Shown piece by piece: positions 34,147 through 59,504 of a DNA stretch of 64,000 nt (the first letter of the stretch is position 1; every line of letters starts with the position of its first letter). Under the pieces are notes generated by a model that searched no databases, was not told the DNA's origin, and saw only the letters and a list, made by a program, of their open reading frames with translations. This stretch comes from Vreelandella nanhaiensis. Lineage in GTDB: Bacteria; Pseudomonadota; Gammaproteobacteria; Pseudomonadales; Halomonadaceae. The stretch spans positions 372,001 to 436,000 of the forward strand of contig NZ_RZHF01000004.1 of NCBI RefSeq assembly GCF_003990185.1, given 5' to 3'. The position numbers and the translations under genes are program-made.

Positions 34147-34216
34147 GGCGATCTCCCCTTTCATTCAGTGTCGTCTACCCATACCCTAGCAGTTCATCCA
34201 AGTAGTCAGCGAAATA

Positions 34217-37028: not shown

Positions 37029-37075
37029 GAATAGCCGCCTGCGTATAAGAACGATCAAAACGCAGGCAGCTATTC
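37029..37075. terminator. Long hairpin between convergent ubiH-like gene and rnz
   Basis: A 16-base inverted repeat with one mismatch, GAATAGCCGCCTGCGT and ACGCAGGCAGCTATTC, separated by 15 bases. It spans the rnz stop codon and probably ends transcription from both sides, although there is no strong T-run. Confidence 0.7.
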
Positions 37076-38032: not shown

Positions 38033-38108
38033 ATCTTGTTCTCTTTTATGCACTTGCTTTGGAAGCTAGGCTACAGATTCGCTGAATAAATGGGTAATCC
38101 AGTAGCTG

Positions 38109-42332: not shown

Positions 42333-42986
42333 TTAGCCGTTCGCGTTTTCTTCCGCCACCTGACGCAGCGCATCGACCAGCACGTCAGCGGGCTGGGCGC
42401 CAGAAATCAGGTAGCGGCCGTCGAGGATGAATCCCGGTACAGCGCTCACTCCTGCCTCCATAAATCGCTGTTGTGCCGCTCGAACCTCGTCCGCGTACTG
42501 ATCAGACCGAGCAATGGCTTCGGCAGCGTCACCGTCAAGCCCAACCTCAATGGCCTTCTCGCGTAGAACCTCTGGGTCTGAAGGGTTTTTCGCCTCACCG
42601 AAGTAGGCATCAAACAATGCCAATTGTAGGGGCGTTTCCAGGTTCTGCGTTGCGGCCCACGCAAGCACGCGGTGGGCATCGAAGGTGTTGTTCGCCCGAC
42701 GCTCCTGGGCGCCACGGAAATTTAATCCAAGCCCTTCGGCCACCTTCATAATCTCGCGCTGGGACTGCTCCATGCTGGCAGCATCCTTACCGTATTTGCG
42801 GCATAAATGCTCCAGGATCGGCTCGCCCTCGGGCGGCATGTCTCGGTTGAGCTCAAAGGGCTGCCAAAAGAGTTCGACGTCGATCTCACCATCAAGGGTT
42901 TCTAGTGCTTGTTCCAAGCGTCGGTAGCCGATCGCGCACCACGGGCAGGCAACATCGGACACCAGGTCAATTCTCAACGTCTGCAT
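42333..42986 (-). CDS. FrnE-type DsbA family oxidoreductase
   Basis: A cytoplasmic DsbA-fold protein of the FrnE group. The ATG at 42984-42986 after AGGG starts MQTLRIDLVSDVACPWCAIG, with the redox site CPWC near residue 16. The helical insertion carries NLNFRG-type sequence (GLNFRGAQERRANNTFDAHR), and GVSAVPGFILDGRYLISGAQP contains the cis-proline. About 217 residues, the family length. A truncated paralogue is 1 kb downstream on the same strand. Confidence 0.9.
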   Translation of the reverse strand: MQTLRIDLVSDVACPWCAIGYRRLEQALETLDGEIDVELFWQPFELNRDMPPEGEPILEHLCRKYGKDAASMEQSQREIMKVAEGLGLNFRGAQERRANNTFDAHRVLAWAATQNLETPLQLALFDAYFGEAKNPSDPEVLREKAIEVGLDGDAAEAIARSDQYADEVRAAQQRFMEAGVSAVPGFILDGRYLISGAQPADVLVDALRQVAEENANG

Positions 42987-43039
42987 TGGGTAAACCCTCA
43001 TTCGGTCAAACTGAAGAAAGCATGGTACGCGCCTATAGG

Positions 43040-43673: not shown

Positions 43674-43789
43674 CCGATAACGACAATGAGAACATCATTT
43701 GCCCTACTACTGATGGGCAGTGGCTAAGGCTTGTAGCACGTCAACGCAATGCCGCACGCGATCAGCCCGGGAACATGTGTTTGTTATAG
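43674..43789 (-). repeat. Candidate attC site (long, degenerate)
   Basis: On the minus strand, CTATAACAAACACATG at the stop codon of the lipoprotein gene pairs with the complement of CGATAACGACAATGAG about 100 bases on. The outer arms keep the AAC/GTT core, and the stop codon lies in the R'' box. The inner arms are poorly conserved, so this site is weaker than the two upstream ones. It could alternatively end at the closer GTTGACG near 43738. Confidence 0.5.
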
Positions 43790-44215
43790 CCCGCAGCCAA
43801 TTTTATTTGGTTCTTCTGGGCATGGCGTGCTTTTCCCTGGAGTAAGAATGACGTTGTATTGGGGCTGAAAATCTTGACCACTACTCCACACTGTAGAGTG
43901 TGTTTCAAAACCTGCTTTTACTACGCACCAATTCCAAAAAAACACGTTTGAGCCTTGAATCATTAGCGATTCAGTGCGCCACTCCTTCATTTCTGGAAAG
44001 CTTGCCTCACCTCTATAACTGGTTTTATCTACCCTCCTCGTTTGTTCAAAGCCATAAGGGTATGAGCTCGATATTAAATACACCCAAGCATCCTGGATGG
44101 GGTTTCCTTCCACATCGGTTACGAGAATTTCAGCATCTGGCTGAAGCGTCTTGTTGATGGGATAAATAACGCAGCCTGATAGCAACAGAGTCATCGTTAG
44201 TATGAGCAGTTTCAT
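43784..44215 (-). CDS. Cassette-borne lipoprotein of unknown function
   Basis: The ATG at 44213-44215 starts MKLLILTMTLLLSGCVIYP, a lipoprotein signal with lipobox LSGC. The open frame upstream of it is translated attC DNA and should be ignored. About 143 residues in total. The mature part starts with a short carboxypeptidase-regulatory-like beta region (ILVTDVEGNPIQDAWVYLIS) and is tryptophan-rich later. No function is recognised. Stop codon inside an attC-like element and start just after another are the marks of an integron gene cassette. Confidence 0.75.
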   Translation of the reverse strand: MKLLILTMTLLLSGCVIYPINKTLQPDAEILVTDVEGNPIQDAWVYLISSSYPYGFEQTRRVDKTSYRGEASFPEMKEWRTESLMIQGSNVFFWNWCVVKAGFETHSTVWSSGQDFQPQYNVILTPGKSTPCPEEPNKIGCGL

Positions 44216-44225
44216 GTGTGGTTCG

Positions 44226-44299
44226 CTATAACGCTTTGAATAAGCCGCCAATTTGGAGTGGCAGCGGAAAATTAGTCGGCTTGATTCATTCGTTATCCT
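44226..44299 (-). repeat. attC recombination site (integron cassette)
   Basis: A 74-base imperfect palindrome. Outer arms are GGATAACG and CGTTATAG. The next arms, AATGAATCAAGCCG and CGGCTTATTCAAAG, pair with a single extrahelical base, and inner arms CTAATTTT / CCAAATTGG close the stem. The stop codon of the upstream cassette gene is the TAA of the R'' box. Size, symmetry and core triplets fit attC sites of chromosomal integrons. Confidence 0.8.
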
Positions 44300-45210
44300 A
44301 GATTTTCCGGAGTAATAAACACCGTTGAGATCCCTTGAGGATCATCGCTAACGGGAATCTCTCCGTCAAAGCCTCCATTCAAACTACCTGGGTAATCCAT
44401 ATTACGAGAATCGAGATATAAGTAGGTATGCTGCTTCTTGCCCCTAGCGGTCCCCCCTGAAGAGGCCAAAGTATCGTTTATTAGCACGGTTATTAACCGA
44501 TCCCAGTCATTAGACATGTTGCCAAGAGCAAAATGCTTTCCCATTGCATTAATAGGTTGAGTAATCATACCGAGGATTGCTTCACCATATGTCTCTGGGT
44601 GTGAATTCGGTGGCCACATTGTTTGCCATGAAGGAATTATTGTAGGCCAGCGTTTAGCTTTAGCATCCTTGATCTGAAGGAAAGTACAGTGCTGAAGTCG
44701 TGAGGTTCCGTATGAAGGAAGCTGGAACTCGCAGTTGACCTTTGGATTTAACGGATACGGACTTCTGCCGGACGCAACAGATGTTTGACTACTGAGTAAA
44801 AACTTAGAAGCGCCACTTAGGAGCTGAAGCTCTTTTTTTGTTGATTTATTAGAAACTGAAATTCGGTTATGGCTCTTACCTTTCTTTGCTTGAACAAGGA
44901 GCGCCCTGCCAGCTTTCCTTCTGTGGTCGTCCCAGGTAACGATCAATAGATCCGCCAGTTCACAACTTGGTTTGTGCCAAGCTCCTTTTTTCTGTGTATA
45001 CCAACACTGCGGAGTATGGTCGACCCACACAGATGCCACCGAAACAGCTGGATAACCTAAACGCAGAAGCTCAAGATTTAAACTAGTAGCCCACACATAT
45101 AGCCCGGATGGATGATGGACCGCCCGTAAGTAGTCTCTTTCGCTGGGGGAAGAGCCGCTAAAATGCGGAGCAATGTGCCATATATATTCAAATGCAGACT
45201 CTAACGGCAT
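44293..45210 (-). CDS. Cassette-borne protein of unknown function with a possible nuclease-like core
   Basis: The ATG at 45208-45210 lies five bases after AAGGAG; ten upstream codons of the open frame are attC DNA. The 305-residue product is not recognised. CELADLLIVTWDDHRRKAGRALLVQAKKGK has the spacing of a PD-(D/E)xK core: acidic residue, turn, then beta-strand with QxKxGK. That is suggestive only. The remainder has no signal peptide or membrane helix. It is bounded on both sides by attC sites, so it is a mobile gene cassette. Confidence 0.75.
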   Translation of the reverse strand: MPLESAFEYIWHIAPHFSGSSPSERDYLRAVHHPSGLYVWATSLNLELLRLGYPAVSVASVWVDHTPQCWYTQKKGAWHKPSCELADLLIVTWDDHRRKAGRALLVQAKKGKSHNRISVSNKSTKKELQLLSGASKFLLSSQTSVASGRSPYPLNPKVNCEFQLPSYGTSRLQHCTFLQIKDAKAKRWPTIIPSWQTMWPPNSHPETYGEAILGMITQPINAMGKHFALGNMSNDWDRLITVLINDTLASSGGTARGKKQHTYLYLDSRNMDYPGSLNGGFDGEIPVSDDPQGISTVFITPENLG

Positions 45211-45222
45211 ATCTCTCCTTAA

Positions 45223-45295
45223 GGATAACGCCCCACTCACCGAAATTTTGGGAGCGCAGCGAGTAAAATTTCCGCGTTAAGTGACTTGTTATGCA
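45223..45295 (-). repeat. attC recombination site (integron cassette)
   Basis: A 73-base imperfect palindrome. Outer arms are GCATAAC and GTTATCC, next arms pair TCACTTA with GTGAGTG-type sequence, and inner arms CGGAAATTTT / CCAAAATTTCGG are nearly perfect. The variable terminal part is CTCGCTGCGCTC. It follows the stop codon of the HEPN-like cassette gene by nine bases. Best of the attC candidates in the window. Confidence 0.85.
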
Positions 45296-45300
45296 TACAG

Positions 45301-46287
45301 TTACACTTCCGTCGACAAGTATCTAAGCGATTCCTTATCAAGATCATTTTTTAGCACTGTAATTATTGATTCATAGATGTCTACAAGGCTTGCACAAAAA
45401 CCAATCCAGTCGTTATAATTCTCATGAAGCATAGGTTTATTCTTGATTAATTTATAAGTCACTTCTTTATGGACCAACTCTATGTCATTACCTTTGTGCA
45501 CTCCACCATTATGCACTGTGTTTCTAGCCGCTCTGATGAAATCAACTATATCTTTATCGATTCTTAAGTCACGAGGATAATTTTTTTCGCCTGCTTTGTT
45601 CATTACAAAATTAAATTTGTCAGGAAAAGATATAAAATTTCCAGGAACCGATCTCAATCTAGAAAGGTGTTTATTTTTTTCTTCTTCGCTTGAAGCTTTT
45701 TCATAGTCGTCAAGATGCTTGCTACATTTCCTTAACCTACTCAATGTATATCTTTCAGTCATTTCATTCCCATAGTTTTCAGATATTTTCGAAATCCAAT
45801 ATTCAAACGCAGAGAATATGCTGACTTGAAAGTCTAGAATATGTGATCCGACCGTCTGATCATATCTATTGACAAACAAATCATTCAAACAATTGAGAGA
45901 ATCTGAAAGTGAATCTCCAGATAGTGTATACGGTTTTCCTTGGATAATAATTTTTTTACCGTAGTGCCCTTCGTTGAGTATTTGAGTTAACAAGGCTGCT
46001 AGAGGTCGAGCCTGCACAGAATTTGATATTTCAGAACAAGTAAAAAACATCAATGACTGCTCACACACAGTCTTAACATGCCCAAAAAAGCTACTTATTG
46101 TTACAGGATTTTTAGGATAACCAGACTCTTCAAGATCGCTTAAAAAATGTTTGCTTTCGTAATAACTACATACATCTTTTAAGGACAGAAACGCTCCTAT
46201 TCTATGCTTGTTTCCCACCTGATACTCTAATTCGTCGCAATATTTACCTATTGCATCTAATAAAGATTCACCATCTACAACTTCCAT
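45301..46287 (-). CDS. Cassette-borne protein of unknown function with a HEPN-like motif
   Basis: 328 residues from ATG 46285-46287, AT-rich and unlike neighbouring core genes. The sequence is mostly helical and soluble. Near residue 260, DFIRAARNTVHNGG resembles the R-N-x-x-H motif region of HEPN-fold proteins, which include RNA-cleaving toxins, but R-to-H spacing is only partly canonical. No function can be assigned. A clear attC site follows within ten bases, and another candidate lies upstream, so it is a gene cassette. Confidence 0.72.
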   Translation of the reverse strand: MEVVDGESLLDAIGKYCDELEYQVGNKHRIGAFLSLKDVCSYYESKHFLSDLEESGYPKNPVTISSFFGHVKTVCEQSLMFFTCSEISNSVQARPLAALLTQILNEGHYGKKIIIQGKPYTLSGDSLSDSLNCLNDLFVNRYDQTVGSHILDFQVSIFSAFEYWISKISENYGNEMTERYTLSRLRKCSKHLDDYEKASSEEEKNKHLSRLRSVPGNFISFPDKFNFVMNKAGEKNYPRDLRIDKDIVDFIRAARNTVHNGGVHKGNDIELVHKEVTYKLIKNKPMLHENYNDWIGFCASLVDIYESIITVLKNDLDKESLRYLSTEV

Positions 46288-46334
46288 ATGCTACCTATAA
46301 CTATTCGATCTGCATAACAGTGATTATACGGAAG

Positions 46335-46383
46335 GCTGCATAACCCCAATAAACGTCCCCGCTCATTCATTAAGGTTATGTAG
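46335..46383 (-). repeat. Candidate attC site (short or truncated)
   Basis: On the minus strand CTACATAACCTTAATGAAT and GTTTATTGGGGTTATGCAG form an inverted repeat with the AAC/GTT cores. The TAA of the ORF upstream lies in the first arm. A second GTTATGCAG, 28 bases further on (about 46310), could be the true right core, making the site about 74 bases. Assignment is therefore less certain than for the site at 45223. Confidence 0.55.
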
Positions 46384-46570
46384 CCAGCTCATTTGACTCT
46401 ACCCCATTGTTTCTATTGTGGGCAAAGAAAAATTTGGCTGCATATCCAAAATTCGCGTGCCTAAGCATTTTGCCGGTTTCACTCATGCGGACACCCAGTA
46501 TTACGCATGCGGGGCCTGGTTTATAGGGTATAGCCTCACGACCAATAGATACGTACTCACACCTGCCCAC
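46376..46570 (-). CDS. Small ORF, possible truncated cassette gene
   Basis: Up to 64 residues from a GTG, or 36 from the internal ATG (MSETGKMLRHANFGYAAK). No recognised family and no good ribosome site. What supports it as a gene is only that its stop codon lies inside an attC-like arm. Its upstream end runs straight into a jetD-like remnant, with no attC or attI in between, so the cassette was probably cut at this point. Confidence 0.35.
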   Translation of the reverse strand: MGRCEYVSIGREAIPYKPGPACVILGVRMSETGKMLRHANFGYAAKFFFAHNRNNGVESNELAT

Positions 46571-46880
46571 TAAACCACTGCGGCTTAAGCCCCCGCTGCT
46601 TATCCAACAGCAGTATTAAGTATTCATGCATTGGATGAGCAGAGGGCAGCGTAGCAAGGTGTTTGCGCAGCCTGCGCTGGTAGGGAAACGGCTCAGCAGG
46701 CACGTGTAGTGGCGTTGCTATCCATCGTTTGGCTTACCCCGTTGGGATCGAAATCGCCAACGTAGATATATAGCCGCTGGGTTTTGCGCCACGCCTCGGC
46801 CAGCAAGGAGAAATCACCGCCGTATTGGCTATCGCCAAGGTAGACGACCAGCGGGTTTGAGTAGCCGCTTAGCGTTGGTA
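46557..46880 (-). pseudogene. Frameshifted 3' remnant of a jetD-like gene
   Basis: On the minus strand, translation from about 46878 gives GYSNPLVVYLGDSQYGGDF, LLAEAWRKTQRLYIYVGDFDPNG and then a premature TGA near 46692. A shift of one frame gives PFPYQRRLRKHLATLPSAH and ends QWFSGQV-stop at 46557. This matches the end of JetD-like proteins, and its first 50 residues are similar to the end of the ORF at 53307-53966. The Toprim-type GDFDPNG motif is intact here. No 5' part is present; sequence before 46880 is unrelated. Confidence 0.8.
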
Positions 46881-46906
46881 AAGCGGCCGTTCAGCTCATC
46901 GACCTC

Positions 46907-47272
46907 CTACCGGCTGGCTTTGCGGCGGTCCATCGCTGCGGCAATGTCCTCTTCGTGCGCTTCACCCCAGCTGCAAAGCGGCTCCATGGCCCGTACCAGG
47001 CTTACCCCGAAGGGCGTCAGCGAGTAGTCGACGCGCAGCGGGATCTCCCCATAGTCGGTTCGCCGGACGATGCCGTCGGACTCAAGCTCTTTCAGCTGCT
47101 GGATCAACATTTTGTCACTCACGCCCCGGACGCTTCGCTTGAGCTCGCCGTAACGCGTCGGCCCCTTGTTTAAAAAGAACAGAATTAACGGCTTCCACTT
47201 CCCGGTGATCACGTGCAGCGTCGCATGCAGGCCGCAAATGAAACGTGGGTTTTCTGAGTTTTCTTTCGCCAT
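46907..47272 (-). CDS. HxlR-family transcriptional regulator
   Basis: A winged-helix regulator of 121 residues from ATG 47270-47272. Features are the conserved ICGLHATLHVITGKWKPLIL opening with its cysteine, GPTRYGELKRSVRGVSDKMLIQQLKELE recognition helix and DYSLTPFG wing. HxlR proteins often sense electrophiles through that cysteine and control an adjacent oxidoreductase, and here an SDR gene starts 93 bases away on the other strand. An ATG eight codons upstream is an alternative start. Confidence 0.92.
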   Translation of the reverse strand: MAKENSENPRFICGLHATLHVITGKWKPLILFFLNKGPTRYGELKRSVRGVSDKMLIQQLKELESDGIVRRTDYGEIPLRVDYSLTPFGVSLVRAMEPLCSWGEAHEEDIAAAMDRRKASR

Positions 47273-47365
47273 AACGATACTTACCAAAAGGTGCATACTT
47301 GAACATTTGTAAGTGGGTTATATATCGTTAAAGCGAATCGAGTCAACACACACGGAGACCCAAAC

Positions 47366-48100
47366 ATGAATCGGCTAAACGGTAAAATCGTACTCATCAC
47401 AGGCGGAGCCAGTGGCATCGGTCTGGCCTCGGCCCAACGCCTCATCGACGAAGGCGCCTTCGTCTTCATTGTCGGACGGCGCCAGGATGTCCTCGACAAC
47501 GCGGCGGTGGCACTGGGACCCAACGCCCGGGGTCTCCAGGCCGATGTGACGAAGCCAGAGGATCTCGACCGCGTATTCGAGACAGTCCAGAAAGAGAAAG
47601 GGCACCTGGACGTACTGGTGGCCAACGCGGGCGTCGGCGAATTCGCAAGCCTGGGGCAGATCACCTCCGAGCACTATGACTACATCTTCGACATCAACGT
47701 CAAAGGCACCCTCTTCACCGTCCAGAAGGCTCTGCCCCTGATGAAAAATGGCGGCTCCATCATCCTCACCGGTTCTACGGTGGGCAGCATGGGCACCCCG
47801 GCCATGAGCATCTACAGTGCCTCCAAGGCGGCCGTGCGCAATTTGGCGCGCAGCTGGGCGCATGACCTCAGGGGAACGGGCATTCGCGTGAACGTCATGT
47901 CGCCAGGCCCGACCCAAACAGACAAGGTGATGGAACTACTCCCACCCGAAGCCCTGAGCGAGATGAACCGGGCCATACCGCTTGAGCGCTTTGGCGACCC
48001 CAAGGAAACCGCAGCCGCAGTGGCGTTCCTGGCGTCCGACGATAGCAGCTTTATGACCGGGAGCGAGGTGTTCGTTGACGGGGGCTACGCTCAGGTTTAG
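47366..48100 (+). CDS. Short-chain dehydrogenase/reductase
   Basis: A classical 244-residue SDR. It has TGGASGIGLA for NAD(P), VANAGVGEF (NAG), catalytic serine in LTGSTVGS, YSASK with the catalytic Tyr-Lys, and SPGPTQTDK. An arginine pair in VGRRQD suggests NADPH preference. GGAGA precedes the ATG. It is divergent from hxlR, probably its regulator. The substrate is unknown. The pair lies between jetD and rnz remnants, so it has been moved as part of a rearranged block. Confidence 0.92.
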   Translation: MNRLNGKIVLITGGASGIGLASAQRLIDEGAFVFIVGRRQDVLDNAAVALGPNARGLQADVTKPEDLDRVFETVQKEKGHLDVLVANAGVGEFASLGQITSEHYDYIFDINVKGTLFTVQKALPLMKNGGSIILTGSTVGSMGTPAMSIYSASKAAVRNLARSWAHDLRGTGIRVNVMSPGPTQTDKVMELLPPEALSEMNRAIPLERFGDPKETAAAVAFLASDDSSFMTGSEVFVDGGYAQV

Positions 48101-48247: not shown

Positions 48248-48565
48248 TCACCCCCTCAAAGGTAGCCTCCAGCTATGCCTTGATACCGGCAGGCGCATAA
48301 GGGTCAGCGGCGCTTTCCGGCCACCCATTCCCGCACTCGCCAATATACCCGGCAACCCATAGCAGTGGTCGCCGTGCACGTGGGTAATCAAGATAGCTTT
48401 CAATGAATAGAACGACAGCTTTGTATGCAAGACCTGATGCTGAGCGCCCTCACCACAATCAATCAGGTACCAGCCTTTCCCCTTGCTCTCTCGTAAAGCG
48501 ATTCCAGAAACGTTGCGTTGCTTGGTGGGTACACCAGTGGAGGTGCTGAGAAAGAGTAGGTTCAT
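48248..48565 (-). pseudogene. Truncated second copy of rnz
   Basis: The first 90 or so residues repeat the RNase Z N-terminus ([20 protein letters not shown] through [13 protein letters not shown]) with high identity to the intact rnz at 37070-38032. After APLT the frame shifts and similarity at DNA level ends near 48257. All later zinc ligands are missing, so a working enzyme is not expected. It keeps the original start codon but no recognisable upstream rnz context. Confidence 0.85.
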
Positions 48566-49160
48566 AACCCTCCATAGTATTTATTTTTTTACTAGTGGAA
48601 CTGTCGCCAAACATCTTTAGAGATACACTTTTTGATCACTTAAGCTATTATCAATGATTGATACGTCACGCAGCGAGTCATATAAATAATAAGGATAATA
48701 TACCAAGCCAATCTTAAGAATGCTAAAAATATAGCTTGACCGAGTTTTCTTCGTTAAGGCTTTAACCTCTGATGAATTAAAATTTATTCGGCTTTATTAT
48801 GTACGCATTGCTGACTACCATCGTCACCACGACCTGAAAAGAATCAAACATTAGACTTTAGAAATGCATCACTAGCACTACTCATTAGGAGCTGAAGGGC
48901 AAACAGAACCTTAACTAGTGCTATCTATAAAAAGCACAAAATAAGTTATAAAAAAACCTCATCAAACCAACAGCTACTCTTGCGTCATAAAAAACTATAC
49001 TAAGAGGACAAGCTTTTTAAAAAAAGACGCCACAACGCACTAAGATTCGGCAATAAAAAATATTAATTAAAACAAAAAAACTTTTAGCTTTGGAAGAATT
49101 AAACTAGAACGGAGAGGTGCCTTAGAGCACCTCTTACACTTATGCTATTACATTAGATAC
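48566..49160. other. AT-rich gene-free stretch, probable edge of the NACHT insertion
   Basis: About 600 bases with no credible gene, strongly AT-rich like the NACHT gene that follows and unlike the GC-rich SDR gene before it. Near its end a 7-base hairpin (GAGGTGC / GCACCTC, 49124-49143) lies about 20 bases past the NACHT stop and might act as a weak terminator. No direct repeats, integrase or transposase remains were seen. Confidence 0.5.
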
Positions 49161-52100
49161 TTAATCTTCCTGCTTTAACCAGTCGCTTAAACACTTCTTT
49201 TTGGATACCGGAGAAGACGAGCGCTCACGCCATTTTGAGAGAATAATTTGCATTCTACGGCTCATAATGTAGTTATCCCTATATAAGTCAATAAGCCTTC
49301 CTAGCAATGTTGCAGACTTATCATTATTTGGTAAAAGCTTTTTCTCCGCAAATCTTAGCATTGATAATATTAACCATTCTGGAGATTCTGAATCTAAAAG
49401 ATCAAAGAATAAATCATCAATATTTTGCTTAAAAAATTGCTCTTCTGTCACTCCATTAACCGCACTACCAATAACTAAAAAGCAAGAAATAGAAGCTTGT
49501 CGAAAAAGCCTTTCCTCATTTGGATTCGCAAATATTTCAAATAAACCAGAGCTAGTGATCCCAAATATAGAGTAAGGATCAGCTTGCATATCATTGCTAT
49601 ACTCGCGCTTACTAAATCTTGGAAGCTCATTAATAGAATTTCTTATGGTAACTAATGCGGATGCAAATAATGGTAACAACTTTTTCTCATTAATCAAATC
49701 TATGTTGAATGGGCTTATTTCAACTTCAAAGCGTTCAGAAACAAAATTTTCAACCTGTACTTCTGATAATCTGTCCAAAAATATTTCCCTTAACTCTTGC
49801 TCTCTAGAACCAGCAAGCTTGAATAAATTACCCCAATGCAATATGTGAGGGGCATATTCTTCAGGTTGAGAAAAAACATGCTCAATTAAATCAGCTGGTT
49901 CTAAATCTTCAAAAAATTCTAAATCACCATCAGTTTCCCAATGAATTAAAATGCTAGCAGCAAGATTCGAGTAATCTCGACAAATGGCTTTCCAGCTAGC
50001 TTTTGAAAAACCACCATGTATTGCAACCATATCAGCATAAGGACGAATATTACGTCCATCAAGCTTTCCAGTCTTAATAAGCTTGTCGTAACTTGATCTA
50101 TCAAGAAAAGAAAGCTTTTTTATAAACTCTAAATTATCATGTCTCAAAGAATCTAATGGAAGCATCGCACATATATAACTCGGAGCTAGCTTCTCGAAAC
50201 CAACTATCCTAGTCGAAAACGAATAATAATTCTGAAAATCCTCATAGCTTTTAGTTTTAGCTAGAACAATTGTTGATGCACAATATTGAAAAAAGGGACT
50301 AAGCTCATTATAACATTCAATTTCAAAATCAATTGAGGATGGTATAGAGCCAGACTGCCAATTATCTTTAAAAACTTGAAATTCAAGCCCTTTATATTTC
50401 CACCTAGGGGTTATAATATTTTTCTCTTTACTAGGCACATCTTTTATAAACAAACTAAGCAATTTTTTCTTAAAATTAGAAAGCTTAGCAAACTCAGAAC
50501 ATTGCAAACTTGTCTTTAGGTTATCAATTAAGACACCTAGCAATAGTGAATAGTCAAGTCCTACTCTAATTTCATCCTCGTTAAGAATGGAAATCAACCC
50601 ACCAATAAACCATTCCTGAACATTATCATTTCTTTCTTCATAACGGGCAAATCTAGAAATATTTCTTTTATGAACTGTTAGTATTGCATTAATATAGCAT
50701 GAAGATGATTTCATTATTCTATTGAGAACGCGCAAATACTGATCACTTTCTATACTAAGAGATTTAGTAAGTACACTTGCAGCACCAACTTGCTCTTCCT
50801 CACTAGCTTCAAACAAGTACTCAATCATACAACCTTGCAGCCATATCCTTGTATTAGAGTGACTTACATCAGCCATTAAACCTATAAGCGCGCTATCTAA
50901 TGTACTATACAAAGGTGTCAATACACTTTTAAAATTTTGTCGTACTCGACGGTCTTGTTCTAAAACTCCCTCAGTTATTAACCTAAGCGCTAGAATCGCT
51001 CCAATAGCTAATCTTTTTCTAAAAATTTGCTTAAAATGACACCCCTCCCAATTATCAGTAGAAGAAAGCACATCCGCAGACATAGCCAACTCGGAAATTC
51101 TTCCATTAACTACAAGAGAGCTTAGCAAAAAGTGCATAACCTCTCGCCAATGAGCATCTGCACATATAACATCTATACGATCACGCATTGTAATAGCTGT
51201 CACGTCTGTGTAAATAAACTCACCTGCAAAAAACTCTTGTAGCTGCCGAATATCGAATCTTACATAATCACTATTATCAGGAGTATTAACAAAGACTAAA
51301 CGCTCAGTTGTCGCCTCCATTAGAGCATTCAAAGTTTCATCTATGTTAGTTTCAGACAATATTGTTACCGTTTCTTTAGAAAGCTTTTCAAATTCTTTTT
51401 TCTCAAGAGTAGCTTCAGCTCCGTCACTAATTTCTGCTTTTGCATGCAATGCAATTCCAAGCCTAGCATGGATTGCTTTTAAGAGTTTATCTTCTCGTAA
51501 AAGAATATTGATTCTAGGATCTTTAAAGTTTTTCTGGCTTTCCCTTTTTTTCATAACTCGATAAAAGTTTTCAAACAGCTCCCATCGTTTTTCCGGTGGC
51601 CTTCCTCCATCTCGGACAACAACCGCCATAATATGCGATTGAAGAGGAGTCGTCATTAACTCGCGAACTTGTGCAGAATGCATTGCATTTGAAAGAGTTT
51701 CAACAGAATCATCACCTTCCGATTCAGTACGACCAAATCTAACTACTGCAGTTGCGCAAAGTAGAGCTATATGTGTTGGTAAGTGTGAAAGAACTGCTGT
51801 ACTAGCATCTAATTTTTCAAATTGTCCGGAATATCCTTGTGGTCTGGTAGTGCACAAAATCAGTGCATCTGAATCAATAGAAGGTAAAACCTCATCAGTG
51901 AATTTTATTATTTCATTAGCGATGTTGTCTTTTACATCATTTGGTACTTCATCAAGCCCATCAAAATTAAAAAACCAGCTTTTAGTGCTGATCACCCTTT
52001 TAAGAGTGCCGGGTAAAACTTGCTGCTCTGTTTTTGCCTCAATTCTTTCAGCCAAATAACTAAGCATACCTTTTGATTCTTTATCATCTCTTCCTCCATA

Positions 52101-53135
52101 CCAAGTAGCGAAATCTTTAAGCTCTACCTGAACAGGAATACGTGGCACATTAGTCCACAGCCCTAGCTGCTCTGCGACTAATTTCAATTCGCTAGCGGTT
52201 TCTTCTACTGCGGGAAGAACGTTAGGCCCCCCTTTATTCAATATAAATGACGCTCTTTGAATTTGACTATAAAATTGACCTAAAGTTGATTTACCTTGCC
52301 CTGGACCACCCTTTAATATAAACACACGAGAACGTTTTAAAGCTTTACCATAGTTTCTTCCTCGAATTGACTCATTACTCCAGCAAGAAACTTTGTGATT
52401 ACATGCTGCACTAGATGAAAGCGTATCTAAAAAATTTTCATATTGACAACTATCTACAGCAAAAGGCAAATCAACAAACAACTGATGAATTTTTGGCCTC
52501 GCATCAGAAGATGAACCGGCTTGTTCTAACTTAGTATAAGCTTGCTCATTAAACTGATTAACTATTAAATGATCAATTATCGCTTTAGCTTGAGCATATT
52601 TATCATTTATGCTTTCATACAAACTAGATAACACATTACCCGGTGTCAAAAAATGCCCATAGTGCCTAGCAACTTCAAGATCTTTGCCTAAAAAATCTAA
52701 TATTTTCCTCCCACCCCATATATCAAATTTTATTTTATCAGATAGCTCAGAGTGTACTAATTTTTTTATCTTATCGTAGCTGCCAGTATTTTTAACCGCA
52801 GTAGGTTCAATATTAGTAGCTATAATCCATATATCAGGAACTGGCCGGCTGCGTTTGTGAAATAAATTAATTTCATTGCGAACTTGTTCATATAACCATT
52901 TTTGCTGATTTTTACTTAAATTCGGCTTATGGAACTTAGATTGTATATACCACACTCCTGACCATGAATTCTTAACAGTAGGATAAGGAGCTGCACCTTC
53001 CAAATAACCATCTCTTCCTCCGTCAGCCCCATCAGCAAATCCAGTAACACCATTCCCAAGCACACGCATAGCCAAGTAATTAACCATACTCTCAAACGAG
53101 TGACTATCTAACTGACTCAATTCATATGATGACAT
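49161..53135 (-). CDS. NACHT NTPase with N-terminal Mrr-like nuclease domain (antiphage candidate)
   Basis: 1324 residues. The N-terminal domain has Mrr/PD-(D/E)xK spacing: E15, D42 in GGRDG and Q65-S66-K67 in VWYIQSKFH, a predicted DNA-cleaving effector. The NACHT ATPase follows, with Walker A GGPGQGKST at 276-284 and Walker B WFFNFDGLDEVP at 387-398. The remaining 800 residues are helix-rich with no recognised domain and probably form the sensor. This layout fits bacterial NACHT/Avs-type STAND proteins that sense phage components and kill or protect the cell. No signal or membrane segment. DNA is far more AT-rich than its neighbours, pointing to recent transfer. Confidence 0.85.
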   Translation of the reverse strand: MSSYELSQLDSHSFESMVNYLAMRVLGNGVTGFADGADGGRDGYLEGAAPYPTVKNSWSGVWYIQSKFHKPNLSKNQQKWLYEQVRNEINLFHKRSRPVPDIWIIATNIEPTAVKNTGSYDKIKKLVHSELSDKIKFDIWGGRKILDFLGKDLEVARHYGHFLTPGNVLSSLYESINDKYAQAKAIIDHLIVNQFNEQAYTKLEQAGSSSDARPKIHQLFVDLPFAVDSCQYENFLDTLSSSAACNHKVSCWSNESIRGRNYGKALKRSRVFILKGGPGQGKSTLGQFYSQIQRASFILNKGGPNVLPAVEETASELKLVAEQLGLWTNVPRIPVQVELKDFATWYGGRDDKESKGMLSYLAERIEAKTEQQVLPGTLKRVISTKSWFFNFDGLDEVPNDVKDNIANEIIKFTDEVLPSIDSDALILCTTRPQGYSGQFEKLDASTAVLSHLPTHIALLCATAVVRFGRTESEGDDSVETLSNAMHSAQVRELMTTPLQSHIMAVVVRDGGRPPEKRWELFENFYRVMKKRESQKNFKDPRINILLREDKLLKAIHARLGIALHAKAEISDGAEATLEKKEFEKLSKETVTILSETNIDETLNALMEATTERLVFVNTPDNSDYVRFDIRQLQEFFAGEFIYTDVTAITMRDRIDVICADAHWREVMHFLLSSLVVNGRISELAMSADVLSSTDNWEGCHFKQIFRKRLAIGAILALRLITEGVLEQDRRVRQNFKSVLTPLYSTLDSALIGLMADVSHSNTRIWLQGCMIEYLFEASEEEQVGAASVLTKSLSIESDQYLRVLNRIMKSSSCYINAILTVHKRNISRFARYEERNDNVQEWFIGGLISILNEDEIRVGLDYSLLLGVLIDNLKTSLQCSEFAKLSNFKKKLLSLFIKDVPSKEKNIITPRWKYKGLEFQVFKDNWQSGSIPSSIDFEIECYNELSPFFQYCASTIVLAKTKSYEDFQNYYSFSTRIVGFEKLAPSYICAMLPLDSLRHDNLEFIKKLSFLDRSSYDKLIKTGKLDGRNIRPYADMVAIHGGFSKASWKAICRDYSNLAASILIHWETDGDLEFFEDLEPADLIEHVFSQPEEYAPHILHWGNLFKLAGSREQELREIFLDRLSEVQVENFVSERFEVEISPFNIDLINEKKLLPLFASALVTIRNSINELPRFSKREYSNDMQADPYSIFGITSSGLFEIFANPNEERLFRQASISCFLVIGSAVNGVTEEQFFKQNIDDLFFDLLDSESPEWLILSMLRFAEKKLLPNNDKSATLLGRLIDLYRDNYIMSRRMQIILSKWRERSSSPVSKKKCLSDWLKQED

Positions 53136-53306: not shown

Positions 53307-53966
53307 TCAGTCCTGATTAAATTTTATGAGTAACGCCAGAGTGACGCCTTTGCCGTCACAGTAACCTATGTAGATATGTGTTCGGCGGGTTTTGCGCCAC
53401 ACCTCGGCCAGTAAGGCAAAGCCACCACCGTAGTGGTTATCGCTACGGTAGACGACCAGCGGATTTATGTATCCCCTTAGCGCTGAAATATCCGGCGAAG
53501 ACTCATAGAAGCTGTCCAGGTTTTCAACCTGAATCAAGGCGCTAAACGTGCTCAGCTTTAGCGCCTGCACATCCACATCACGAATTGTGTGCGGCTCACT
53601 GGAAAGCCCTGCTATTGGCTGAGGCGGAAAGCTTACGAGCACCCGCCGTGCGCGGGGGCTTTCGCGGTTGGTTTTATCCTCTTCTAGCCCCTCTTTGGCC
53701 TGGGCGCTGCTGGTCAGGCTACTGAGTGAACGGCCTAGCGGCGCTATTCGGGCGCTGTCTAATACATCGTTGATCTGTGCGAGCAACGCGGGGTCAAAGC
53801 GCAGTGCTCTACTGTTGATTCGCGAGGCCAGGTCAATGTCGTGCTGGTGGCACCAGGCGACCACGTCGTCTACCCATTGGCGGCGGGGCTTTTCCACCGT
53901 GGGCTGGCGGAGCAGTTCGCGGGCGACGCCGTTAAGCCCATTGTGTGCGCGGCTGGGTAGGTTCAT
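53307..53966 (-). CDS. jetD: JetD-like Wadjet nuclease subunit, C-terminally truncated
   Basis: 219 residues, starting with a four-base overlap with the upstream kleisin gene. The N-terminal 140 residues form the arm/helical region. From 148 the Toprim-like region begins with VENLDSF, the usual glutamate, then NPLVVYRSDNHYGGGFALL and IYIGYCDGKG. The usual GDFDPxG motif reads GYCDGKG, so the first Asp of the DxD pair is lost. The chain stops 15 residues later, missing the C-terminal 60-70 residues seen in the remnant at 46557-46880. DNA cleavage activity is therefore doubtful. Confidence 0.75.
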   Translation of the reverse strand: MNLPSRAHNGLNGVARELLRQPTVEKPRRQWVDDVVAWCHQHDIDLASRINSRALRFDPALLAQINDVLDSARIAPLGRSLSSLTSSAQAKEGLEEDKTNRESPRARRVLVSFPPQPIAGLSSEPHTIRDVDVQALKLSTFSALIQVENLDSFYESSPDISALRGYINPLVVYRSDNHYGGGFALLAEVWRKTRRTHIYIGYCDGKGVTLALLIKFNQD

Positions 53967-55216
53967 ACGGCCAGCTGCAGTTCAACGTCGTGGATCAGGC
54001 GCAGGTGATTGAAGGCACTCGCTTGAGTCTCCTGTTGTTTAAGGCGAAATGCGCGCTGGTCGTTGCGCGGCAGGCCCTGGTACTCGGCAATCACCTGGAA
54101 CAGCCAGATTTCATCGGGCCACTCCAGTGGGCTTTCGTGCAGGTACTCAAGGGCGCTGACTGGTTCTGCCTGGGGCTGATCGATCACACTTAAATAGAAG
54201 TGTTCAACATCCTGCTTAAGTGCCTGTTGGCGGGCGGCGGCCAAGCTACTTTCCTGCGCTTGAGCAGGTGCCGCTGCTTCCACCGTTTGTGTGGTGTGGC
54301 GCGGCTGAGGCAGTTGATGCAGCAGGTCGGCGAGTACCTGGCACTCCAGGTTGCGGTCTAGCGCTGGGGCGGCCGCCGCGTTTAGCGGGGCGGCTTGATT
54401 GACCAGCGCGGGCACCTCGCTGCGCCGGGCGTAGTTGCTGGGCATAAAACCTGGGTGCTCGCGCATAAACGCAGCCATACCGCTGATCAGGCGGCTGCGC
54501 GCCTGCTGCTTACGAAAGCGCGCCATCAGTTCGATCAAGCGCCGCTGCACTTCGCGCAGGCCGGTGTAGTGGTGGCTTAACTGCTGTTGAAGCTGGCTGA
54601 TCAATAGCTTGCGCAGGCTGCCATCGCTGCCTACCAGCTCTATCAACTCGTCAAAGTTAATCAGCGCCAGGCCATCCAGAAGCCTGGCGATCTGTTTCTG
54701 GGCGCGGTCGTTTTCACGGATTTTGTCGTTGAGCTGGCTGACGAAGCCAAAATCGCTATTCAGCCGCTGCCAGAGGCTGTCGATGGCATCGGCGAAGCGG
54801 CCATTCAGGTCGTCGACTTCCTGACGCAGGCGCATTAGTTGCTGCTCTAGCCGCCAGTGTTCGCCCCGGCTGCGCGCCTCGCGGTAGCTGTGCACCAGGG
54901 CACGAATCAGCTCCAAGGTTTCGGCCACATCGGCATTCACATGGCGGCGGGTCTCGTCGGCGAGCATTTCGGCGATCAGTTCACGCACCTTGGGCGCCAG
55001 CTTCACGCCGCTGTGCTCATCCGGCCGCCACAAAATACGCGCCGCCAGTAGCTTGCGCAGGGCGCTATCGCTGAGCGACTCCAGCGGCACTTCATCGCGG
55101 GTGTAGGCCTGCATGAGAACATCGGAATGCTTGCCCAGCAGCGCCAGCCGTTCGCTGCCGGTTTTCAGCAGGCGGCTTTCCAGCTCGTTCACACTGCTAT
55201 TCATACTCTTGCTCAC
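53963..55216 (-). CDS. jetA: JetA/MksB-type kleisin-like subunit of an SMC defence complex
   Basis: 417 residues. The GTG start at 55214-55216 has GGAGG seven bases before it and overlaps the jetB stop. The first 100 residues look like a winged-helix kleisin N-terminus (SLSDSALRKLLAARILWRPDE), then long helices (MRLRQEVDDLNGRFADAID, RARKQQARSR-type), a low-complexity Ala/Pro linker near 290-330 and a C-terminal helical/winged domain (PLEWPDEIWLFQVIAEYQ). Kleisins join the SMC heads. Similar proteins are often called phage resistance protein in genomes; direct sequence signatures are weak and the call rests on operon context. Confidence 0.7.
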   Translation of the reverse strand: MSKSMNSSVNELESRLLKTGSERLALLGKHSDVLMQAYTRDEVPLESLSDSALRKLLAARILWRPDEHSGVKLAPKVRELIAEMLADETRRHVNADVAETLELIRALVHSYREARSRGEHWRLEQQLMRLRQEVDDLNGRFADAIDSLWQRLNSDFGFVSQLNDKIRENDRAQKQIARLLDGLALINFDELIELVGSDGSLRKLLISQLQQQLSHHYTGLREVQRRLIELMARFRKQQARSRLISGMAAFMREHPGFMPSNYARRSEVPALVNQAAPLNAAAAPALDRNLECQVLADLLHQLPQPRHTTQTVEAAAPAQAQESSLAAARQQALKQDVEHFYLSVIDQPQAEPVSALEYLHESPLEWPDEIWLFQVIAEYQGLPRNDQRAFRLKQQETQASAFNHLRLIHDVELQLAV

Positions 55217-55842
55217 AAGAGGACCTCCTGCTTGCCCTCTTCACCTTCGGCATCAATCGGCAGGTTCTCTTCATCGCGGATAAAGCGCACCAGGTCTACC
55301 AGGTAGTCGATCTTGCCGGTCACCACGAACACCTGCCGCTCTGAATGCGGCTGAAGCAGGTAGCCGTGCTCCTTCAGGCGCTTGAAGACCTGCTTTGCCT
55401 GGGCATCCAGCTGATCGCTCTGCGAGCCGAAAAAGCTGTCGGTGGCCAGGCGTTCCAGGCGTTCGCGCAGGCTTTGGTTGTCTTCACACTTGGCGCTGAA
55501 TTCGGCCGGTTTGAGTACATCGCCGGGGGCCGCCAGGGTATCGCGGCCCAGCGCTTCTTGAACCAGCTGTAGCCACTCTAGCAGCGGCAGCAGGCTGTTG
55601 AGTGTCTCACCCAGCTGGCGTGAAAGCTGATCCCGAGCGCTGTCATTCAGCTGTCGCCAGGCCAGGAAATACACGCTGCCGTCTTCATTGCTGGCCAGCC
55701 GCCGATTAAGCGGCCGCAGGTAGATGTCGATCTCCTCGCGGGTCTCTGCATTGCTCAAGTGGCGATAGCCGCTTTCATCACTCACCGGGCAGATAAATTC
55801 CCCGGCGAGTAACCGCTCAAGCAGTGGGCCATGTTCGATCAT
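55213..55842 (-). CDS. jetB: JetB/MksE-type KITE subunit of an SMC defence complex
   Basis: 209 residues from an ATG with AGGAGG seven bases upstream; overlaps both neighbours by four bases. Two winged-helix domains appear likely. HGPLLERLLAGEFICPVSDE followed by ETREEIDIYLRPLNRRLAS is typical of MukE/JetB openings, and QVFKRLKEHGYLLQPHSERQVFVVTGKIDYLVDLVRFI is the usual C-terminal segment. It dimerises and binds the kleisin in Wadjet and MukBEF. The size and order agree with a four-gene Wadjet-like system. Confidence 0.78.
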   Translation of the reverse strand: MIEHGPLLERLLAGEFICPVSDESGYRHLSNAETREEIDIYLRPLNRRLASNEDGSVYFLAWRQLNDSARDQLSRQLGETLNSLLPLLEWLQLVQEALGRDTLAAPGDVLKPAEFSAKCEDNQSLRERLERLATDSFFGSQSDQLDAQAKQVFKRLKEHGYLLQPHSERQVFVVTGKIDYLVDLVRFIRDEENLPIDAEGEEGKQEVLL

Positions 55843-58800
55843 ACCGTCACCTCCTGCTGACGTTCCTGGAGCCGCTCAGCCAAGCGGCTCAGGCGCGGTT
55901 CAATACGTTTTAATACCCGCTTGCTGGGGTTGGCATCAGCGCGATCAATCAGGTAGCGATTAGCAAACAGCAGTAGCACGTCGGATTCAGGGTTGGGGAA
56001 CGCGCCGACGATATGAATACGGTTGCTGTCGCAGGCGTCGAAGAGTTTTTCGACGTTGTGGTAGGCCAGCGTGCCGATCTCATCGATGGGCCAGTGGATG
56101 GCGATGTCCGCATCACCGCGCAGCAGGCGGGTAAACGCGAGCAGGAATTTGCATAGAATCAGGTACGCCATGCCGTGGCTTGACGACTCCAGCAGCTGGC
56201 GGTCGTTCTTAATCACCAGGTCCGTGCCGCCTTCATTCAAGCGCAGTTCCAGGCGCAACAGGCTTTCAAAGCTGTACTGCTGGTCGCTGCGCAGTAAATC
56301 GACCACGTCCGCCAGGGTGTTCAAGTAGTCGTCGCTGGGTAGCGTCTGGCCGGATTCACGCCACTCTTTATAGCGCTGGGCAAACAGCTTCAACGGCTCC
56401 CAGAAGCCCAGCTCATCAATGGTGGACTGAATACGCACTTCGGCCTTGCTGATGCCTTCCAGGCGCAGGTCGTCGGCGACTTCTTCAGAAAGCCGACGGC
56501 TCTGGGCGCTGATGCGTCGGTTCAAATCGCGGAAAACGGTAAAGAACTTGTCCAGGTCGTCACTCAGGTTGCGGCCTTCCTGAATCAACTGCTGCTGTTG
56601 GTCTTCGAGCAGTTTGAGCATGTCGCGCAGTAGCGGCAGCTGCAGGCGCGGGTTGTCGCTTTGCAGCTTGCTGCGCTCGCTCTCCAGCGCTTCGGCAAAG
56701 CTGCTACTGGCGTCCTTGATCAGTTGACTTTCAACATCCAGGCAGCCACGGCGCAGCTGTTCGATTAACTGGTGGCGATTGCCCAACGCCTGGCGGGCGC
56801 GCTCAATGCGCTCGTCCACATCGCCCAGCGGCGCAGCCGGGGCCTGTCCGACAGGCTCAATGGCGAGGCCTTCCAACTGTGTCAGCAGTGGCTTTAAGGC
56901 TTCCAGGCTGGCGTGTTCGCTTTCGCGCTGAGTTTTAAGCGTGCTGACGGTGCTTTGGTGGGTTTTGCGCGCCGTCTGAAAGTCGTTTTTCAAACGCTCT
57001 TTATCGCGTTGAAGCTGTTGCTCGGCTTGCTCCAACTCGGCTTCTTGGGTGACTAGCTGCGGCTTGTGCTGCCCCCACTCAACGCGCATAAAGCGGGTGT
57101 ATTCGGTAAGTTCATCCTGACGCGCGGCGGTAACGCGGATGCGCTCCTCCTGGCTTGCTAGGCGCTCTTTAGTGGCTTTTAGCTTGGCGGGGTCAACGCC
57201 CTGCTCGGCCAGTTCCTGGCTGAAGGCCTCTTCCAGTTCCGCTCGCTGACGCTGGTGCTCGGTGTTGGCATCGCTCAGCTGCTGCTTGTACTGGCGCAGC
57301 TGGGCATCCAGGCTATCCAGCTGGCTTTGGCCGTCGGCTTTTAATTCCAGCAGTTGGCTTTGATGGGTTTCACCCAGCGCTTTGAGGGCTTGCTGTTTCT
57401 CTTCACGCAGCTCAGCTTGTGCCTGCTCCTGGCGAGCTAACGCGGCTTGATGAGTGGCACGGCGCTCCTGTTGATGCTTGGTGTGGCGCTCTTGCTGCTG
57501 GCGGCGCGCTTCCAAAGCAAACTCAACTTCCTGCTCGGCACGCTTATGGGCCATACGGCCTTGGTCTTGAGCTTCATCGGCCTGCTGGACGCGCTCGTTA
57601 TGCTGTTTAAGCGCTTTCTCGGCCGCTTGGCACTCTGCCTGAACGCGCCGTTTGGCGCTATCTGCTTCTTCGATGGCGGCGAACAGCGTGGCTTCGTCCT
57701 GAGCGTAATCGGGCAAGGCAATGGCCGAGAGGTCCAGCGCCAGCCCAAACAGATCATCGCTGCCGCCGTCGGCTAATCGAGGCGCTAAATCGCGCCGCTC
57801 CAACAGCTCTGGGGCAATGACTTTGCCTAACTGCTGCTCCCAGCCGGGGCGGTGATAGCGCAGAAAATGGCGCAGGCTGCCCTGTTCGGGGTCACGCTGC
57901 TGATAGAGCGCGTAGCTGCGCTGCTCGGCGCGCTCAAGCTGCTGGCGAAGCTGCACTAGCTGCTGCTCGGCGTCATCCCGGGCGCGGCGGCAGCTTTCAA
58001 ACTCGCGACGCAGGTTGTCTAGCGTGGCGGCCGATGCGTTACGCTCCTGCTGGGCCTGATCCAGGCGCGCCTGGGCCAGCTCCGCCTCGTTGGCTTCTTC
58101 GGCGGTTTGTGTTGAAAGTGAGAGCTGTGCTTTTAGCTCGGCCAACTGCTCAACGCCCAGCTCAAGCTGGGCCTGATATTCGCCTTCCAGGCGTTGGCGC
58201 TCTTGCTGGTAGCGTTCATTAAGCTGCTGCTCGGCCTCCCACTGCTGCTCACGGCGCAGGGCTTTCTCTTCCACCAAGGCGTCGATCAGCTCTTGGGCTT
58301 CGCCGGTCTGGCGGGCTAGGGCTTCGGAAAGTTCACGCAGGCGACCGTCGAGCCGTGCCTGGCTCTCTTTTACCGCATCCTGCATCACGTTCAGGTGGGC
58401 ACGCAGCTGATCGCGCTGCTCGCGCCACTGGGGCAGCGCATTGATGTCCCGCTCCAGGGCGGGCATATCCGCCTCAAAATAGCGCTCGTACTGGGTTTGC
58501 AGATCATTAAGGCGGCGCTGGGTCTGCTGTAAATCGCTGACCACTTCGCTGTGGCGATCGTTAAGCTCGTCCCACGCTTGGGCGTAGTCGCTTTCCCGCT
58601 GTTGGAAGTCACGCTGATGGCGAGCGAGTTCGGCATCCACATCGGCCATGCGCCGCTCAGCCTGCTGGCGGTCGTCTTCAAGCTGGGGCTTAAGCTGCCA
58701 GAGGGTGGCATCAAGATGGGCAAGCTCGCGATCAATCCCGGCAAGCCGGGCGAGCGACGCCTGAAGGGGTTCCAGGCGCATGGATTGACGCATCTGAGCG

Positions 58801-59504
58801 ATCCACTCCCGCGCCTTGGTGTTACGAATTCGCGTCACCGGTAGCTCAACGCCATCCTCTTCGAAAATCGCCGCCAGCATGGTTTTAAGGGTATCCATCT
58901 TGCCCTCTTTCGCATGCACCGCTGACACCAGCTTTTCGATATGGCGAATGCGCCGCTCGGGTTTGACCAGGCTGAACTGCGCGGCGATCTGGCGCAGCTT
59001 GAGTCCGTCACGGCTATTGCCGTGCAGCTGGGTAAAGTCGTTCTGGATCACCGAGCGAAATTCAGAGGTAGCACCGAGCTTGGGCGATACCGGCGTGCCG
59101 CTTCGGCGCAGGCCACTCGCCCACTGGGTGTAGTCGAGTGCGGCTACGCCTTGTTCGCTTTCGACCAGATAATCTTCGGCCTGATAAGGGGCGCCGACAA
59201 AGCGATACTCCACCCCACCCTCTTGCTTACGAGTCAGCACCGCCTGGCAGATATTGCCCGCTTCGCGGCGGTATTCGTACACCAGGTAGCTGTTGCGATG
59301 CGGCAGGTAGAACGCATCGAACTTCATGCGGGTTTTGGGCACTACCTTATTGGGCAGCTCGCCGTAAAACACCGGCACTAAGCGCTGAAGCGTGGTTTTT
59401 CCCGAAGCGTTGGTGCCGCAAATATTGGTGTGGCCGTCCACACTGAGTTCAACCACGCCTTCAAGGTGGCCGTGAATCATCACGATGCGTAGCAGGTGGG
59501 CCAT
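55839..59504 (-). CDS. jetC: JetC/MukB-type SMC ATPase
   Basis: 1221 residues. The head domain opens MAHLLRIVMIHGHLEG and has Walker A GTNASGKTT at residues 30-38. Two very long coiled coils rich in Glu, Gln and Arg follow, broken in the middle by a short globular hinge (FLRYHRPGWEQQLGKVIAPE). The C-terminal head has the ABC signature SSSHGMAYLIL near 1107, Walker B IHWPIDEIG with D1141-E1142, and an IHIVGAFPNPESD switch. It is the loop-extruding motor of the complex. AAGGA precedes the ATG. First gene of the jetCBAD-like operon. Confidence 0.85.
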   Translation of the reverse strand: MAHLLRIVMIHGHLEGVVELSVDGHTNICGTNASGKTTLQRLVPVFYGELPNKVVPKTRMKFDAFYLPHRNSYLVYEYRREAGNICQAVLTRKQEGGVEYRFVGAPYQAEDYLVESEQGVAALDYTQWASGLRRSGTPVSPKLGATSEFRSVIQNDFTQLHGNSRDGLKLRQIAAQFSLVKPERRIRHIEKLVSAVHAKEGKMDTLKTMLAAIFEEDGVELPVTRIRNTKAREWIAQMRQSMRLEPLQASLARLAGIDRELAHLDATLWQLKPQLEDDRQQAERRMADVDAELARHQRDFQQRESDYAQAWDELNDRHSEVVSDLQQTQRRLNDLQTQYERYFEADMPALERDINALPQWREQRDQLRAHLNVMQDAVKESQARLDGRLRELSEALARQTGEAQELIDALVEEKALRREQQWEAEQQLNERYQQERQRLEGEYQAQLELGVEQLAELKAQLSLSTQTAEEANEAELAQARLDQAQQERNASAATLDNLRREFESCRRARDDAEQQLVQLRQQLERAEQRSYALYQQRDPEQGSLRHFLRYHRPGWEQQLGKVIAPELLERRDLAPRLADGGSDDLFGLALDLSAIALPDYAQDEATLFAAIEEADSAKRRVQAECQAAEKALKQHNERVQQADEAQDQGRMAHKRAEQEVEFALEARRQQQERHTKHQQERRATHQAALARQEQAQAELREEKQQALKALGETHQSQLLELKADGQSQLDSLDAQLRQYKQQLSDANTEHQRQRAELEEAFSQELAEQGVDPAKLKATKERLASQEERIRVTAARQDELTEYTRFMRVEWGQHKPQLVTQEAELEQAEQQLQRDKERLKNDFQTARKTHQSTVSTLKTQRESEHASLEALKPLLTQLEGLAIEPVGQAPAAPLGDVDERIERARQALGNRHQLIEQLRRGCLDVESQLIKDASSSFAEALESERSKLQSDNPRLQLPLLRDMLKLLEDQQQQLIQEGRNLSDDLDKFFTVFRDLNRRISAQSRRLSEEVADDLRLEGISKAEVRIQSTIDELGFWEPLKLFAQRYKEWRESGQTLPSDDYLNTLADVVDLLRSDQQYSFESLLRLELRLNEGGTDLVIKNDRQLLESSSHGMAYLILCKFLLAFTRLLRGDADIAIHWPIDEIGTLAYHNVEKLFDACDSNRIHIVGAFPNPESDVLLLFANRYLIDRADANPSKRVLKRIEPRLSRLAERLQERQQEVTV

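Follow-up and report, generated by a model that had tools for sequence, protein, structure and literature searches.

Remnants of two jetD alleles at a Wadjet-like operon and a predicted integrase-less integron array in Vreelandella nanhaiensis

Why does a second 3' end of jetD lie apart from a jet operon that possesses a jetD of its own? This question is raised by the window analyzed here, i.e., the whole 64,000-nt stretch of a Vreelandella nanhaiensis contig, in which the jetD of the operon (copy A) and the separate piece (copy B) are found on the same strand (Table 1). In a preliminary description copy B was regarded as a diverged and frameshifted jetD end, and two jetD alleles were supposed to have existed here, recombination and insertion having left a 5' part of one and a 3' part of the other. 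Read directly on the minus strand, copy B does encode NPLVVYLGDSQYGG and IYVGDFDPNG, and with them the catalytic motif, in one frame and the natural end of JetD (...KPQWFSGQV; stop codon 46559-46557) in another, as had been stated. It aligns to codons ~157-217 and 231-283 of the 289 codons of intact JetD, and the BLAST E values (3e-24 against copy A, 8e-45 against the intact jetD of G048) exclude a chance likeness to jetD.

Table 1. Features of the window, listed along the direction of transcription of the jet operon.
Feature	Position	Strand	Basis or remark
jetC SMC-like gene (DUF3584), open	55839..59504	-	Pfam DUF3584, E 3e-227
jetB/MksE-like gene, open	55213..55842	-	Pfam MksE, E 4e-6
jetA-like gene, open	53963..55216	-	Operon position and conservation
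jetD copy A, type-1 allele, truncated after codon ~212	53307..53966	-	G175S and D202Y
1324-aa P-loop gene, labeled NACHT/STAND-like here	49161..53135	-	Behind truncated copy A
rnz 5' fragment (to codon ~104)	48254..48566	-	Opposite end of the hxlR-SDR joint
SDR oxidoreductase gene, partner of hxlR	47366..48100	+	
HxlR-type regulator gene	46907..47296	-	Linked to copy B in 4 genomes, without copy B in others
jetD copy B, 3' relic of type-2 allele	46557..46890	-	Codons ~157-217 and ~234-end
Integron attI, orphan (no intI beside it)	46315..46460	-	nhmmer E 3.6e-37; directly behind the relic
First cassette ORF (o45301), 328 aa, no Pfam family	45301..46287	-	
attC of cassette 1	45226..45291	-	nhmmer E 6e-12
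Second cassette ORF (o44293), 315 aa, no Pfam family	44293..45240	-	
attC of cassette 2	44229..44285	-	nhmmer E 3e-6; fold z -4.1 (significant hairpin)
Third ORF (o43784)	43784..44251	-	Relatives at the corresponding place
Full rnz	37070-38053		

The change of frame in copy B is real, but it is not the simple frameshift that had been supposed: about 50 bp (codons ~218-234) are deleted at about 46705-46718, and the junction carries a short direct repeat. The deletion is found at the identical place in the relics of three further genomes (G044, G067 and G036) and is therefore an old event and neither an assembly error nor a product of chance. Near-full-length matches to a query composed of the relic and hxlR were obtained in 4 of the 82 genus genomes, namely the present one and these three, so that the relic is not private to the strain. 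The three other relics have in common an extra 3-bp deletion, which is absent from copy B of the window. An artefact of assembly or sequencing might be suspected in a draft of 29 contigs; with arrangement and deletion both recurring in three other genomes, and the G036 relic residing on a 3.78-Mb contig, such an origin is hardly conceivable.

Aligned with intact jetD genes from related genomes, both copies prove to be jetD, and they are the only jetD pieces found in this genome: a search at E 1e-5 revealed neither a third copy nor an intact JetD. Copy A comprises 219 aa, while intact relatives have 287-293 aa; past codon ~212 it continues as non-jetD sequence, which agrees with the earlier remark that it ends where copy B goes on. 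Moreover, it is devoid of G175 and D202, both invariant across an alignment of 18 relatives, the members of which are 32-92% identical to the first one. Copy B retains these two residues, so its catalytic motif, previously noted as intact, contrasts with the ruined one of the operon copy; being itself a stump, however, it encodes, as judged from its sequence, no working nuclease. Within codons 158-211 the dN of copy A against eight intact relatives is 0.10-0.20, as compared with a mean of 0.058 and a maximum of 0.102 for the intact pairs (n = 28). Within codons 1-157, too, copy A is close to the maximum of the intact pairs or exceeds it (0.057-0.077, as compared with a mean of 0.043 and a maximum of 0.066).

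The two copies overlap by ~50-55 codons, close to the ~50 given before, and differ clearly: within codons 158-217 copy B is 80% identical to copy A over 116 bp and 87% identical to the intact jetD of G039. The latter gene carries in this region 8 DNA sites that are seen in at most 5% of the 58 other intact genes, with one such site in codons 1-157 and another one in codons 218-289. (The 59 intact genes are those of 70 genomes with a JetD match minus G081 and minus 10 without an intact frame in the sequence read; the JetD 'frameshift' of G071 falls at assembly Ns and was not counted.) Six of the 8 sites are matched by copy B and none by copy A, and the relics of G044, G036 and G067 match 5 of 7, 4 of 6 and 3 of 7, respectively; private sites of the jetD of other genomes are matched by copy B at 0-1 position each. 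In the maximum likelihood tree of codons 158-217 (64 sequences; G067_A and G034_rel were excluded for their shortness, and copy A was masked over its last 18 columns), G039 and the four relics form a clade with 100% support, within which the relics are united at 92%, while copy A falls outside it, next to G023 (support 61). In the tree of codons 1-157 it groups with G060, G048, G022 and G026 at 95%. The exclusion of copy A from the clade of G039 and the relics, together with the site test, establishes the pieces as belonging to two alleles, type 1 (copy A) and type 2 (copy B), and this part of the preliminary description is borne out. As a side observation, the intact JetD gene of G039 (L078) has a private type-2 patch at codons ~158-217, as if it had been converted by an allele which otherwise is found here in relics only.

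These data bear on two simpler origins of copy B. It could be the other half of a single jetD split by an insertion, as the common strand and the stop of copy A at the point where copy B goes on would suggest. The overlap of the pieces and their positions in different allele clades, as well as the fact that in G044 each copy is followed by an attI of its own, render this highly improbable, as had been argued from the overlap before. Alternatively, a tandem duplication within this genome might have given both copies, and it would indeed leave jetD 3' and rnz 5' fragments on the two sides of one joint. But copy B is nearer to G039 than to copy A, the allele test disfavors a common source, and the unit is common to four genomes; self-duplication is thus, in our opinion, improbable.

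The operon beside the relic is Wadjet-like, and its role in plasmid defence is suggested by this likeness. DUF7281 is the right family for its JetD; it was matched in all 18 JetD relatives scanned and JetD_C in one of them, and a profile search with JetD_C (PF09983) gave no match in this genome. A predicted model of an intact JetD relative (mean pLDDT 83) was found by Foldseek to be closest to topoisomerase VI subunit A (E 2e-3, probability 0.95, TM 0.31), the TM value indicating a distant match. In the accessible portion of PMC13040014, the nucleases of Wadjet/MksBEFG systems are described as topoisomerase VI homologues. The features in common with these systems are the SMC-like DUF3584 protein, the MksE-like subunit and the nuclease with a topoisomerase VI-A-like fold, while the DUF7281 kind of JetD and the gene order C-B-A-D are different here. 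An intact nuclease subunit is absent, copy A being truncated with D202 lost and copy B being a stump. The jetA-like product has no Pfam match over the cut-off, searches of PDB sequences with JetD, JetC and JetA gave no convincing relative, and the PADLOC JetC profile matched the JetC of the window over its first 42 residues only (E 7e-5). Compared with their counterparts in G044, where an intact JetD is likewise missing, JetA, JetB and JetC show a dN of 0.019 each at a dS of 0.39-0.54 (JetC over 862 codons). The present genome and G044 thus offer two natural cases of the SMC-type trio without the nuclease.

Two further observations concern the surroundings of the operon. In 27 other genomes the identity of JetC is 93-98%, as against only 74-78% for the product of the neighboring gene at 32683-34164, read here as SelO-like (the exceptions being G026 with 93% and G003 with no match); either strong constraint or exchange may underlie an identity of JetC so far above that of the neighbor. 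The P-loop gene situated behind the truncated jetD is AT-rich and has a weak Pfam ATPase match (E 0.008, below the cut-off), and its N-terminus weakly resembles PDC-S73, a defence candidate, in the PADLOC search (E 1e-5).

Behind the relic we recognized an attI site with an HMM built from 11 intI-linked copies. The element is ~150 bp long and is conserved through CACTGTTA and variable right after it in nearly all of the 33 aligned genus copies. Among 20 fetched copies located away from jetD, an IntI N-terminus lies 57-69 bp from the site in 12, and no IntI match was present in the ~1-kb stretch around the other 8; the full IntI of L189 reaches 393.9 bits on TIGR02249 (cut-off 265). These flanking IntI N-termini rule out a MITE or a REP element, which was considered as another candidate. 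A cassette promoter (Pc) proposed from a TATAAT-like box was likewise abandoned, since a sigma-70 scan at attI found no promoter. The site is regularly associated with jetD: it was detected behind 47 of the 59 intact genes (43 at E below 1e-10), with 39 matches reaching the recombination boundary and 8 stopping short of it. No attI was found within the up to 600 nt searched behind the other 12 genes (only 117 nt in G019), nor behind the jetD genes of three Halomonas records (L229, L231 and L233) and of Denitrificimonas (L234), which are more distantly related.

The attI of the window is homologous to the IntI-adjacent site, but it has no integrase gene beside it. No integron integrase over the TIGR02249 cut-off was detected in this genome and no IntI match in the window; 19 of the 82 genus genomes have such an integrase, the present one not being among them. 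Consequently, the region is an intI-less array and not a complete integron. The genome has two further attI-like sites, C6:78994-79143 (L190, E 1e-18) and C8:204360-204507 (L191, E 6e-14), each with an attC nearby and, over the 8 kb read, no match to IntI, which makes three orphan attI sites in a genome without a detected integron integrase over the cut-off. Orphan copies exist elsewhere too, e.g., in L173, L176 and L188, where the attI, having no IntI match, is preceded by a frame that we read as TenA-like. In L124 (G056), a tyrosine recombinase 32% identical to IntI (13722-12925) is located directly behind the jetD-linked attI and represents either a first cassette or an inserted element.

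The array itself has the layout of integron cassettes. Between the attI boundary and the first ORF there are 27 bp, and 9 bp separate the end of this ORF from an attC; the ends of this attC pair in the DNA fold, the energy of which is not below that of shuffled sequences (z -0.13). Pattern scans for attC were either too strict or unselective and yielded nothing in the two arrays of the window. Iterative nhmmer, seeded with the attC of cassette 1 picked by eye and a site from a pattern scan of L122, detected, at an E limit of 0.05, 48 attC sites in the window and 50 loci (51 sequences), two of them at cassette ends in the window and others in jetD-linked and IntI-linked arrays. Relatives of o43784 in G044, G067, G036, G034 and G006 have 78-83% amino acid identity. 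From the sites we infer that the cassettes are joined by attI-attC recombination. The attI beside copy B may still accept cassettes provided that an integron integrase is supplied in trans, and the cassettes would be expressed by read-through from the jet operon or from a promoter near attI.

With two attC sites and no intI, the array corresponds to a CALIN as defined, in the portions available, by PMC12444791 and PMC9892861 (at least two attC sites without intI). Like the CALINs of Xanthomonas, known from the available part of PMC12444791 to occupy conserved chromosomal positions, it consists of attC cassettes with no adjacent intI at a conserved place; unlike the CALINs described in those portions, it keeps an attI at its head and is anchored by the nuclease gene of a Wadjet-like operon. 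Sedentary chromosomal integrons resemble it in the attI, the attC type and the cassette layout, which are those of the intI-linked arrays of the genus, but here jetD takes the place of intI and reads towards attI instead of away from it. Extra attI-type sites inside arrays are also known as the delta-attI cassettes of mobile integrons (PMC12901181, in the part available); those are cassette-borne, whereas the present site is chromosomal and lies behind an operon. The region is thus an integron array without intI that has the Wadjet-like operon as its anchor. Among the matches listed in the literature on integrons, CALINs and Wadjet, we found no description of an attI behind jetD.

How the two alleles came to lie in one locus is best approached through the gene order. 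Along transcription, the window reads jetC-B-A-D(A), the NACHT-like gene, the rnz 5' fragment, SDR/hxlR, jetD(B), attI, o45301, o44293, o43784, DUF43077, dsbA and, further on, the full rnz. In G044 the order is jetD(A, ~80-88 codons), attI, array, rnz 5' fragment, SDR/hxlR, jetD(B), attI and o43784; in G067, hdac, a jetD 3' stump, attI, ~12 kb, SDR/hxlR, jetD(B), attI and o43784; in G036, hdac, SDR/hxlR, jetD(B), attI and o43784. The breakpoint of the rnz fragment is identical in the window and G044, and the rnz fragment of G026 is different. In eight further loci the hxlR-SDR pair is not accompanied by jetD, and the common segment stops just past hxlR (window 46905-46908).

What the region shows is the scar where two versions of a single locus meet, both made up of jet operon, attI and cassette array. 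We consider it likely that copy B is the dead stump of a jetD allele with its attached attI and cassettes, and that recombination with incoming DNA placed the two versions in tandem. The hxlR-SDR pair would then sit at the joint, which would retain only one rnz 5' part and one jetD 3' part, and copy A would have been truncated too, with the NACHT-like gene now behind it. The position of the relic between hxlR-SDR and attI, the truncated rnz and the NACHT-like gene behind copy A make the recombination and insertion put forward in the preliminary description the best account of the 5' part of one allele and the 3' part of the other, though as a course of events it is a reconstruction. For the tandem arrangement no donor sequence is known, which counts against this account. 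In the nearest relative, G026, both hxlR-SDR and copy B are missing from the stretch read, and the unit thus reached this lineage by an indirect path.

The same two alleles could also have been brought together in another order, by loss and re-gain. In this case the type-2 operon of the ancestor would have been deleted down to the jetD 3' end beside hxlR-SDR; a later insertion between hdac and SDR would have brought in a type-1 operon together with its attI, its array and the 5' end of rnz. G036 has just the order expected after the first step (hdac-SDR-hxlR-relic-attI), and no jetC was found in it, nor in G067, where a second jetD3'-attI stump lies beside hdac ~13 kb from copy B; the lack of the operon in G036 fits this course as well. 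However, G036 may just as well have arisen from the tandem state by a later deletion, and it need not be ancestral if, as the low divergence of the unit suggests, the latter moved between species. We hold loss and re-gain to be a possible course, though less probable than the tandem placement. In L127 (G008; 12788-12940), L128 (G055; 7997-7851) and L126 (G054; 8968-9115), a second attI lies behind the jetD-linked one at a distance of several kb (in L126 about 2 kb); two of these sites follow another rnz 5' fragment. Versions of the locus may thus have been stacked repeatedly.

The divergence data, from which the dsbA rows were left out, point to exchange between species. The relics of the four genomes differ by K 0.19-0.35, although they are dead sequence, and when the window is compared with the three other genomes, four-fold sites of hxlR and SDR give K 0.17-0.35. 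The flanking genes are more diverged: K is 0.50-0.63 for dh against G044, G067 and G036, and 0.85-0.98 for abc and hdac against G067 and G036. Being less diverged than its neighbors, the unit of relic and hxlR-SDR probably spread horizontally and is probably younger than the separation of the neighbor genes.

What looked like a stray gene fragment thus marks a gene-capture platform, of which many related bacteria have one right behind the jet operon. The arrangement is genus-wide: an integrase-less attI, which has its fixed place behind the nuclease gene in an anti-plasmid operon of the SMC type, heads a variable array. It offers a reason for a hotspot at this spot and is well suited to testing whether an integrase acting in trans can use orphan attI sites, while the partial core genes (jetD 3', rnz 5') would bear witness to earlier interspecies exchange of entire versions of the locus. 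Small circular DNA is cleaved by Wadjet, and integron cassettes travel in the form of such circles; the operon could therefore police docking at its own 3' end. That attI is fixed there because the two work together, the operon deciding which cassette circles survive to dock, strikes us as a doubtful conjecture, unlikely to be right; if it were true, cassette traffic would be released where JetD is lost, which is the case here and in G044. Lastly, genes that we label DsbA-family-like occur nearly in tandem, a partial one at 40868-41356 and a full one at 42333-43001, and represent another partial duplicate in the window.
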